A DNA stretch of 19,822 nt from Pseudomonadota bacterium (GTDB taxonomy: Bacteria; Pseudomonadota; Gammaproteobacteria; SZUA-229). How positions within the stretch are numbered: the first letter of the stretch is position 1; the number at the start of each line of letters is the position of its first letter. This document shows, piece after piece, positions 1,499 to 17,891 of this stretch. The position numbers and the translations under genes were made by a program. Where the stretch lies: assembly GCA_015222965.1 (NCBI GenBank), contig JADFWF010000170.1, positions 1 to 19,822 of the forward strand, in the 5' to 3' direction. A model generated the notes under the pieces. The model ran no database searches. It worked only from the letters and a program-made list of their open reading frames with translations, and was not told where the DNA came from.

Positions 1499-1576
1499 GT
1501 CATGCCGGTATGTTTCTAACCGGTATCTATATTTTATGGTAGCAATGGACTCCGGCTACAAACATGCCGGAATGAC
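1499..1576. repeat. inverted pair of CCGG palindromic units (REP-like)
   Basis: Two 32-nt copies lie head to head. One reads on the plus strand at 1499-1530 and the other on the minus strand at 1576-1545. By hand alignment 25 of 32 bases agree. Each copy folds by itself, with CCGGT/ACCGG pairing in the first and CCGGC/GCCGG in the second, around a nine-base loop starting ATGTTT. The changed stem pair (T-A versus C-G) is compensatory. The copies can also pair with each other. The pair fills most of the hisG-hisD gap. It resembles dispersed palindromic units common in proteobacterial intergenic DNA, which I recall but have not checked. Confidence 0.7.
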
Positions 1577-1594
1577 GACATGCTTGTCAGTTTT

Positions 1595-2218
1595 TTAGGA
1601 AACAGCTGCGCTGATCTGATCGATGATAGCGCTGATTTTTTCGTGTTTCATCTTCATCGAGGCTTTGTTCACCACCAGGCGTGAACTGATATCGGCGATA
1701 TGATCAACAGGTTTTAGCCCGTTGGCTTTTAAGGTATTACCGGTATCGACGACATCTACGATCAGATCAGACAAACCCACGATCGGACCCAGCTCCATCG
1801 AACCATAAAGCTTGATGAGTTCTATCTGCTCGCCACGGGATTCAAAATAGCGTTTAGCCACATTAGTAAATTTAGTAGCAACGCGCAAACGTCCACTCAC
1901 TCTCGGCTTAGCATCAACCAGACCAGCCGTCATTAATTTACACTTGGCGATTTTTAAATCCAGTGGTTCATACAAACCTTCACCACCGTGCTCCAGTAAA
2001 ACATCTTTACCGGCCACGCCCAGATCAGCGGCACCAAATTGAACATAAGTTGGCACATCAGTGGCACGGATAATTACCAGTTTTACATCATCATGATTGG
2101 TATCAAGAATTAACTTGCGGCTTTTATCCGGATCATCGGTGGGCACTATGTCGGCTGCTGCCAATAGGGGAAGCGTTTCTTTGTAGATGCGTCCTTTAGA
2201 AAGAGCGATGGTTATCAT
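1595..2218 (-). CDS. hisG: ATP phosphoribosyltransferase, short form
   Basis: HisG commits carbon to histidine synthesis by joining ATP and PRPP to give phosphoribosyl-ATP. The 207-residue protein is the short form. It has the catalytic domain, including ALSKGR at the N-terminus and the PRPP-binding loop [10 protein letters not shown] at 158-167 with E142 upstream. It lacks the C-terminal regulatory (histidine-binding) domain of the E. coli type. Short HisG proteins of this family work as hetero-octamers with HisZ, a HisRS-like regulatory subunit. No hisZ lies in this window, so it must be encoded elsewhere if the enzyme is active. The start codon is an ATG with only a weak GAAG upstream. The inverted-repeat element carrying the four-helix-bundle gene ends 10 nt before this start and separates hisG from murA. 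Confidence 0.96.
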
Positions 2219-2228
2219 GACTTCGTGC

Positions 2229-2712
2229 CAATGAATAATGAATAATGAATAATGAATAATAAAAAACGCATTAGCTTGTTTTTATGTTCTCTTTAGCAGT
2301 ATTGATACTGGATGTTAGCAACTTAATTAACTCGTTTGTTTGCGGCTTAATGCTATCAAACATGATCTCAGAGATATAGCCGCCATCATGTAAAAGCCTT
2401 AGCCAGTAGTATGTTTCGTTCGCTTCTTTTAGCCCAATACTTAACTTATGAATAAAATCCAATTTAGACTGAGCGTATTCAGCTTCACAAATCAACGCAC
2501 CGACAGAAGTACCCGACCTCAAAATTTGTTTACTAATCACATATTCTTTTTTACGGCAATTAAGGTACTGCGCAAGTTTAACTACTCGTAAAGCAAAGGT
2601 GAAACTTTTCTTTTTTAAAATGTTATCCATAACACTTACTCTCCCTATTTTACTCACTTAATTAACAGTTTTTTCTTCTCTATTATTCATTATTCACTGT
2701 TCATTATTCATT

Positions 2713-2713
<1 letters not shown>
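2229..2713. mobile_element. 485-bp heptamer-armed element carrying a four-helix-bundle gene
   Basis: Inverted arms of 33 nt lie at 2229-2261 and 2681-2713 and agree at 31 of 33 positions. Each arm is a C followed by four heptamers of the type AATGAAT and then AATA. The left arm has four identical units. The right arm has two substitutions, giving one AATGAAC and one AGTGAAT. Between the arms is one gene (2271-2630) in the same direction as murA and hisG. The element starts 18 nt after the murA stop and ends 10 nt before the hisG ATG. No transposase is present and no clear target duplication is visible. Two non-coding relatives lie at 10076-10196 and 17708-17891. That it is mobile is an inference. 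Confidence 0.6.
2271..2630 (-). CDS. four-helix-bundle protein (S23/IVS, Avd-like family)
   Basis: A 119-residue all-helical protein that matches the small four-helix-bundle family TIGR02436. That family was first met in intervening sequences of 23S rRNA and is related to the Avd accessory protein of diversity-generating retroelements. Typical signatures are visible: [19 protein letters not shown] near residues 26-44, then [23 protein letters not shown] and [11 protein letters not shown]. The biochemical role of stand-alone members is unknown; positively charged members have been proposed to bind nucleic acid. I chose the ATG at 2630, which has AGGGAG about 10 nt upstream. A longer reading from a GTG at 2657 adds nine residues and covers that Shine-Dalgarno sequence. 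The gene sits inside the heptamer-armed element between murA and hisG and looks more AT-rich than its neighbours. Confidence 0.9.
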
Positions 2714-4329
<1,616 letters not shown>

Positions 4330-10075: not shown

Positions 10076-10196
10076 CAATGAATAATGGATAGTGAATAAT
10101 GAATAATTTAAAAACACAAGCCAGAAACCATTCACATATCGCTTTCTATTTTCACTCGCTTTTCATTATTCATTATTCACTATCCATTATTCATTG
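10076..10196. mobile_element. 121-bp non-coding heptamer-armed element in the kdsD-kdsC junction
   Basis: Perfect 32-base inverted arms lie at 10076-10107 and 10165-10196 around a 57-base AT-rich spacer. Each arm is a C, four heptamers (AATGAAT, AATGGAT, AGTGAAT, AATGAAT) and AATT. The two variant heptamers are the same in both arms. The element starts 5 nt after the kdsD stop and ends 8 nt before the kdsC ATG. It has no open frame of note. An RNA copy would form a very stable stem. AGC flanks both ends, which could be a 3-bp target duplication or chance. Related elements lie at 2229-2713 and 17708-17891. Confidence 0.65.
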
Positions 10197-17707: not shown

Positions 17708-17891
17708 CAATGAATAATGAATAATTTTAGATGTCAGCAATATTTTTACAACAATCTCGCACTGTACGATAAAACTATATAAATCAAAACATAGAAAATA
17801 AATTATAAAAATATGAAAATACAATCACACGCACAAGCCAGCACTTTGCCACGGTTTGCATTATTCATTATTCATTATTCACTATTCACTG
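17708..17891. mobile_element. 184-bp heptamer-armed element in the HPr-ptsI junction
   Basis: The right arm (17859-17891) is a full 33-base array. On the minus strand it is C, two AGTGAAT, two AATGAAT, then AATG. The left arm (17708-17725) has only C, two AATGAAT and AAT, so 17 bases can pair with the inner part of the right arm. The spacer of about 133 bases is AT-rich and holds no convincing gene. It shares CACAAGCCAG (17832-17841) with the spacer of the element at 10076-10196 (10115-10124). It starts 3 nt after the HPr stop and ends 7 nt before the ptsI ATG. It looks like a shortened or decayed member of the family. Confidence 0.55.

Follow-up and report, generated by a model that had tools for sequence, protein, structure and literature searches.

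Introduction

The closest described counterparts of the element reported here are the intervening sequences (IVSs) of 23S rRNA. The Coxiella 23S IVS carries an S23 open frame in sense and a 28-bp stem that is cut by RNase III in vitro; in its 5' region, where the cut falls, there are heptamers in tandem (PMC4990558). The authors of that paper consider that the Coxiella S23 protein is probably not made in vivo; according to the same source, rRNA IVSs have no effect on growth in E. coli and S23 proteins have no known function. An exception is provided by the Avd relatives, which serve in diversity-generating retroelements (PMC10053308). In the part of the literature covered, no link was found between S23 genes and flanking heptamer arrays in operon junctions, and a prior description is possible.

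Results and discussion

An S23 gene between inverted heptamer arrays

The window, which is the whole stretch of 19,822 nucleotides analysed, contains the only S23 gene detected in its assembly (75% complete; genome G000). The gene lies in the junction between murA and hisG, and the features of this junction and of two related elements are as follows.

1595..2218, minus strand: hisG, the downstream neighbour in the direction of transcription, with a HisG family match
2229..2266, no strand assigned: left arm, four AATGAAT heptamers reading inwards, followed by an A-rich inner boundary
2271..2630, minus strand: S23 / 23S rRNA-IVP four-helix-bundle gene (PF05635, TIGR02436), 119 aa, ATG at 2630
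2639..2646, minus strand: probable ribosome-binding site, AGGGAGAG, ahead of the S23 ATG, as judged from the sequence
2676..2713, no strand assigned: right arm, an inverted array whose outer 33 bases match the left arm at 31
2713..2760, no strand assigned: hairpin with 23-nt arms (91%) that spans the stop codon of murA and directly adjoins the right arm
2732..3991, minus strand: murA, the upstream neighbour in the direction of transcription, with an EPSP_synthase family match
10077-10195, no strand assigned: short inverted AATGAAT element without S23, between the kdsD and kdsC readings
17709-17888, no strand assigned: short inverted AATGAAT element without S23, between the ptsH and ptsI readings

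The EPSP_synthase-family neighbour is taken to be murA, and the genes around the two short elements are, judging by their translations, presumably kdsD and kdsC in the first case and ptsH and ptsI in the second. Transcription runs from murA through S23 to hisG, with all three genes on the minus strand. The S23 frame scored 91.5 bits against PF05635 (cut-off 33.8) and 101.5 bits against TIGR02436 (cut-off 24), which places it in both families; its solved relatives are PDB 2rld, found by sequence and profile, and 2gsc, found by profile, with five chains each. A start at GTG 2657 would give a protein of 128 aa (ORF 2271-2657, minus strand); judged from relatives, the ATG at 2630 is more likely to be the true start. 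A second hisG-like gene, 68% identical to that of the window, was seen elsewhere in the assembly (G000:C146:1619-2230) and is either an extra copy or contamination, which is estimated at 4.35%.

A reading made from the sequence alone (the sequence-only reading) had described an S23/IVS-type gene bracketed by inverted AATGAAT-type arms, and this was borne out. Of the 33 bases in each arm (2229-2261 and 2681-2713), 31 are matched by the other arm; when the hisG-murA stretch was shuffled 40 times under a Markov-1 model, the best inverted 33-mer match reached 25 of 33. A repeat search extended the arms to 38 nt, 89% complementary and 409 nt apart. Folded as RNA, positions 2220-2722 gave a predicted energy of -126.8 kcal/mol (z -4.6). 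The two arms pair in this predicted fold, so that the terminal inverted repeats close a long stem as they do in an IVS. The S23 frame is in sense with the host transcript, a feature of some IVSs. The element sits in the hisG-murA junction and not in a 23S rRNA gene; no rRNA match was found in positions 1500-3200 of the window.

Packaging and orientation of S23 genes across bacteria

S23 genes were searched for in 145 genomes, comprising the own genome and its relatives; 40 genomes were positive, with 53 matches, of which 50 were used including the own locus. A species-spread set of 80 loci was kept from at least 590 confirmed relatives, one genome per species, and includes Planctomycetes, Clostridia, Bacteroidetes, Acidobacteria, Chloroflexi, candidate phyla and one archaeal bin. 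The resulting 130 loci were picked irrespective of their flanks and 129 were usable for the arm test.

With 640 mismatched pairs as the reference, arm complementarity lay above their 95th percentile in 107 of 129 loci (66 of 79 in the species-spread set), leaving 22 below that threshold; it exceeded the 99th percentile in 76 of 129 and the largest mismatched pair in only 9 of 129. The sequence-only reading had proposed such a survey of homologues, and was not refuted by it. Among arrays scoring at least 10, a best tandem period of 7 was found for 59 of 69 on the upstream side and for 73 of 79 on the downstream side, compared with 13 of 225 distal windows. A period-7 array of this score was found behind 51 of 111 genes lying upstream of S23 and behind 19 of 259 other genes of the same loci (p 1e-16). 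The units of the two arms differed at no more than 2 of 7 positions in 63 of 67 loci, against 21% of mismatched pairs. The inward-reading strand was richer in G than in C in 72 of 81 arrays upstream and in 78 of 91 downstream, and poorer in 3 and 7 respectively; in the species-spread set alone the corresponding counts were 43 against 3 upstream and 46 against 6 downstream. At one locus (L094) the S23 gene has TAACTGA-like arms, and at six (L181, L187, L189, L199, L213 and L221) the best flank period is 8 or 9 on at least one side. No rRNA match was obtained at any of the 40 loci searched out of the 80 in the species-spread set.

A second recurrent home of S23 was seen behind an rpsI-like gene end (..SKR) at L100, L109, L112, L115, L119, L125, L134 and L140, where the upstream gene is taken to be rpsI. 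A tRNA-like sequence follows downstream where readable, and several of these loci have fold-back hairpins of the gene end.

Orientation relative to both neighbours, taken as long open frames, could be called in 69 of the 130 loci. S23 ran in the same direction as both in 58, same/opposite in 6, opposite/same in 3 and opposite to both in 2 (n=69; 13 loci share the murA-hisG junction). Between co-directional neighbours the sense arrangement thus prevails by 58 to 2 (p 3e-15, uncorrected for relatedness), and by 33 to 1 in the species-spread set. The match to S23 starts a median of 87 nt after the upstream stop codon (111 loci). By analogy with the rRNA IVSs, we infer that S23 usually relies on host transcription.

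Twenty-one plasmid records had an S23 match; eight were fetched, of which seven are annotated loci. Seven of the eight exceeded an arm score of 24, the 95th-percentile mark from slightly different windows, with L301 (23) falling below it. Five of the seven annotated loci had S23 in the direction of both neighbours and two (L296 and L301) opposite to both. A further S23 element, L299, is from Azospirillum lipoferum 4B. Two S23 elements of cyanobacterial plasmids lie within CRISPR operons: L298, from Picosynechococcus PCC 7003 and with period 8, separates cas10 from cmr3, and L297 separates cas6 from cas4. The common packaging may explain the presence of S23 genes in such operons. A figure legend in PMC10910872 also lists a 23S rRNA IVP.

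Occupied and empty murA-hisG junctions

Within the genus, an S23 gene with arms occupies the murA-hisG junction in G000 (the own genome), G003, G004, G005, G009, G010, G012 and G013; the copy in G012 has an internal stop. The element of G003 (L117, L232) has very long complementary arms, with a score of 148, which include a non-heptamer extension. G008 has an S23 tail at a contig edge in the same junction, and in G006 the arms are kept and the S23 gene is mostly deleted. The junction is empty in G007, G014 and G015, where murA and hisG are separated by no more than 18-19 nt. In genomes outside the genus it is occupied in G018, G030, G033 and G074 and also, viewed from the murA side, in G070; in 14 other genomes murA lies beside hisG without S23, G021 and G029 among them keeping short array remnants. 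The comparison of close genomes that had been suggested on the sequence alone therefore finds a junction that is polymorphic in the genus, not fixed.

The S23 genes at this junction fall into two supported clades (100/98), mostly with 58-67% DNA identity between them; G008 and G006 were placed in a clade by identity alone. The murA + hisG tree rejects S23 clade A including G070 (AU p 1.7e-8) and clade B (p 0.0013); without G070, clade A is not rejected (p 0.11). The host sisters G070/G074 and, with weak support, G000/G008 bear different S23 clades. The simplest account of the conflict is that the element was replaced, transferred or repeatedly inserted at this one site; ancient coexistence followed by losses is a possible alternative.

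One further genome, G068 (6% contamination), has two S23 elements that are 94% identical over 422 bp. Their homology ends at the arrays on the upstream side; one of the two contigs ends inside the downstream array, so that one flank was compared. The pair suggests duplication into a new site. Recurrent arms at S23 genes, a genus with both occupied and empty junctions and the copies in G068 all speak for the IVS-like unit of operon junctions that the sequence-only reading had envisaged.

Short elements and heptamer dialects

A 21-mer of three AATGAAT units, with up to 3 mismatches, gave 190 overlapping matches genome-wide compared with 5 for its reversed control. Pairing was carried out on 33 fetched array stretches and the window, and gave 25 mirrored pairs and 13 unpaired arrays. 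Of the pairs, 24 are short elements (89-225 bp) that could not hold an S23 gene and the 25th is the S23 element. The sequence-only reading must here be broadened, since 24 of the 25 pairs of such arms detected enclose no S23 gene. The elements share traits with MITEs, being short, having terminal inverted repeats and occurring in many copies, and an A-rich inner boundary is common to them. Array length ranges from 14 to 76 nt. The interiors of the 25 elements gave no mutual blastn match better than E 0.03, and no target-site duplication was visible by eye in the 25 pairs, empty sites having been compared at few junctions. Five contigs of the own genome (C100, C188, C196, C284 and C315; L062, L068, L071, L078 and L082) start within about 20 bases of a heptamer array; the assembly is therefore probably broken by arrays, and longer array-bounded elements may be missing from it.

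The heptamer itself, AATGAAT in the window as the sequence-only reading had it, proved not to be fixed but to vary among species. Array patterns were counted in 18 genomes of the genus; since matches overlap within arrays, these are not counts of elements. With one mismatch allowed, matches to the AGTGAAT array were most frequent in G010 (133), G012 (47) and G001 (41), with 1 in G000; those to AATGAAA in G009 (108), G003 (35) and G016 (31), with another 28 in G013 and 23 in G000; and those to GTTGTAA in G007 (40), G006 (13) and G012 (10), with 0 in G000. With two mismatches, AATGAAT matches numbered 144 in G000, 80 in G011, 30 in G016 and 28 in G009. Genomes have a predominant, though not pure, dialect. 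G014 and G015 gave zero matches to all four patterns and G017 one array, and none of these three has S23; arrays without an S23 match occur in G001, G002, G011 and G016 (67-85% complete).

At kdsD-kdsC, array traces were seen by eye in 12 of 14 genomes of the genus, mostly in the genome's own dialect; those of G002 are weak and those of G006 one-sided, and none were seen in G014 and G015. Between ptsH and ptsI, G000, G009, G003 and G010 carry an element; the two genes are 21-41 nt apart in G001, G002, G004, G005, G008, G012 and G013, and in G006 they are 155 nt apart with no evident array. Own arms scored higher than arms swapped between species at both junctions: 54.3 vs 30.8 at murA-hisG (n=13, p 2e-4), where the own partner was the best in 8, and 37.5 vs 23.1 at kdsD-kdsC (n=11, p 6e-4), where it was the best in 5. 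Within an element the arms thus stay complementary while the unit changes between species. How dozens of dispersed arrays hold to one predominant dialect is a question that this raises; one type may have spread recently, or arrays may undergo exchange with one another. In-place conversion of the arms was considered at kdsD-kdsC and rejected: the interiors looked homologous when compared with shuffles, but the orthologous interior from the own genome ranked only 2nd to 19th of 24 when set against the other elements.

Relatedness of heptamers and of S23 proteins gave a Mantel r of -0.14 over all pairs, beyond 1000 permutations. Once shared junctions were removed r was -0.075, within the null range, and heptamer-protein specificity was rejected. 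As the heptamer drifts almost freely with respect to the S23 sequence, recognition, if any, would be of structure, period or the G-rich strand. An explanation of the heptamers by stop codons found no support either, with 65 of 105 units against 58 expected (maximum 68 in 200 shuffles).

Fold-back hairpins at gene ends

The hairpin at 2713..2760 is an imperfect inverted copy of the 3' coding end of murA (17/19). Its match to RF03816 (30.5 bits, cut-off 114) is below threshold and most likely due to chance. Perfect hairpins flush with the outside of arrays were found, under a strict score, at 12 of 61 own-genome flanks and in 4 of 1960 control windows. Fifteen hairpins were inspected, namely 14 flush ones of the own genome and the imperfect one of the window, and 10 of them contain, or are no more than 3 nt away from, the stop codon of an open stretch of at least 70 codons. 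For this reason the hairpins resemble a gene end followed by its inverted copy.

Stems of 8 or more were found at 8 of 111 ends of genes upstream of S23 and at 1 of 297 other gene ends (p 2e-4; the cases are not independent). Four of the eight are at rpsI-like ends (L109, L112, L115 and L125) and two at murA (L104 and L131). A 16-bp copy of the murA end is present in G070, and neither this copy nor that of the own genome is found in the empty G007, G014 and G015. Seven other occupied genomes have nothing longer than 4 bp at the murA end, and the S23-less G029, G026 and G021 have hairpins of 6-7 bp there. With automatic array starts, flush hairpins occurred at 7 of 164 arrays of S23 loci and at 18 of 2410 controls, a weaker effect than in the own genome. 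The long fold-backs may be read as a trace of hairpin-primed copying; alternatively, a selected mRNA hairpin is possible.

Proposed explanation and its rivals

The explanation favoured here, with slightly better than even confidence, is that the element is a messenger-borne analogue of the 23S rRNA IVS, that is, a read-through-transcribed RNA stem that spreads by DNA-level copying. In the operon transcript the element would form a long stem whose loop contains the S23 frame. The stem would isolate the frame from both neighbours and, by analogy with rRNA, would probably be trimmed by RNase III, making the insertion nearly harmless; S23, if made, would arise by read-through. For the DNA-level copying, hairpin-primed template switching is suggested by the fold-backs of the target gene end together with the mutually matching arms. 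S23 would recognise the hairpin structure and not a fixed heptamer; an S23-related crystal structure is a pentamer. Both the RNA processing and the movement of the element are what we infer from these data. Several observations count against this explanation: no target-site duplication was visible, 22 of 129 loci fall below the complementarity threshold, two of the seven annotated plasmid loci have S23 opposite to both neighbours, four genomes of the genus have arrays and no S23 match, dialects are mixed, fold-backs occur at a minority of loci, heptamer and S23 sequences are hardly linked, and the Coxiella S23 is probably not made. The short elements could alternatively be tied to another, unseen mobilising system.

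A bolder extension, which we offer only tentatively and consider rather doubtful, is a messenger-borne class found throughout bacteria, with S23 genes as its autonomous members and with mirrored arms that would be held in trans to a largely uniform genome-wide dialect. Special cases or S23-less derivatives of this one system would then include the rRNA IVSs and the heptamers of Xanthomonas, Beggiatoaceae and Nostoc, and S23 would be a structure-reading factor that promotes fold-back copying at gene ends, with no need for a transposase or reverse transcriptase. That related genes in many bacterial groups share the packaging is itself a sign of a hitch-hiking class of elements that is widespread and has been little described; the common packaging gives the S23 family a testable role and could unite repeat families that have been described separately.

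MITEs are short intergenic elements with inverted ends. It is unlikely, though worth serious consideration, that the present elements are DNA-only and MITE-like, moved in trans by an ordinary arm-reading transposase with S23 as cargo or a domesticated accessory. In favour of this are the terminal inverted repeats, the many short S23-less copies, the empty sites in relatives and the near-identical copies of G068. A randomly oriented transposon would not, however, be expected to show a sense bias of 58 to 2. Period, polarity and the agreement of the arms are constant while the unit is not the same from one species or element to the next, and the interiors lack significant blastn matches (none better than E 0.03), although the A-rich inner boundary is common. 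The absence of visible target duplications in the 25 pairs also counts against this account, as does a search of 50,697 phage records, in which there was no match at E 1e-5 and hence no sign of a phage vehicle.

A purely mutational origin, in which 7-nt slippage and hairpin template switching near stop codons build the mirrored arrays and S23 hitch-hikes, is quite improbable. It would explain why array length varies so greatly (14 to 76 nt) and why fold-back hairpins, the classical products of template switching, are present beside the arrays. It would not explain why arrays lie behind the gene upstream of S23 so much more often than behind other genes (51/111 vs 19/259), why the unit is present or absent as a whole at murA-hisG or why the G-rich polarity is constant.

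The arrays might instead be host-useful RNA hairpins, acting as signals for mRNA processing or stability, with S23 a host regulator that reads the dialect. The persistence of array traces at kdsD-kdsC (12 of 14 genomes of the genus, by eye) and the regulatory role proposed for the related Beggiatoaceae repeats (PMC4679880) are consistent with this, but the empty junctions in relatives, the patchiness of S23 (40 of 145 genomes), the conflict between host and S23 trees and the arrays in genomes without detected S23 make it very doubtful.

Finally, a reverse-transcribed element served by a trans-acting reverse transcriptase, with S23 as an Avd-like partner, is most improbable: the resemblance of Avd to PF05635 (PMC10053308) and a sense bias compatible with an RNA intermediate are outweighed by the finding of no RVT_1, which a DGR accessory such as Avd would call for, in the own 75% complete assembly, and by the lack of association between RVT_1 and S23 (12 of 40 S23-positive vs 30 of 105 S23-negative genomes, Fisher p 0.84).

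Comparison with known systems

The elements resemble MITEs in being short and intergenic with inverted ends, and differ in that the ends are arrays of variable length with a unit that varies from species to species, the interiors have no significant homology and no target duplication was seen.

Three other heptamer systems are comparable. In the tRNA-Leu intron of Nostoc, the P6b stem is likewise formed of complementary heptamers, of the interchangeable classes TDNGATT or NNTGAGT; these lie inside a group I intron, and the relevant passages of the paper mention no S23 gene (PMC4476775). The TAACTGA repeats of Beggiatoaceae are, like the present ones, abundant intergenic heptamers near genes; they are described as direct repeats with one inverted case, and neither 'S23' nor 'helix bundle' occurs in the main text (PMC4679880). 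The GGGAATC heptamers of Xanthomonas are also intergenic and G-rich, with 70 convergent inverted pairs in one genome and 75 in another; the genes that border the pairs are mostly the same, and the sequence varies. That paper concerns G-quadruplexes, and 'four helix' is absent from its main text (PMC4692102).

The nearest likeness is to the 23S rRNA IVSs of Leptospira and Coxiella, in which a sense S23 frame also lies in a loop closed by terminal inverted repeats (PMC4990558). The sizes are similar, at 428 nt for the Coxiella IVS (PMC4990558) and 485 nt for the window element. Unlike these IVSs, the window element lies in a protein-coding operon junction, its arms are repeat arrays shared with many short S23-less elements and cutting by RNase III is putative. 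Although IVS-like in its working, it is therefore, given its location outside rRNA, not a 23S rRNA IVS; it is best described as a messenger-borne, array-armed S23 element with short S23-less relatives.
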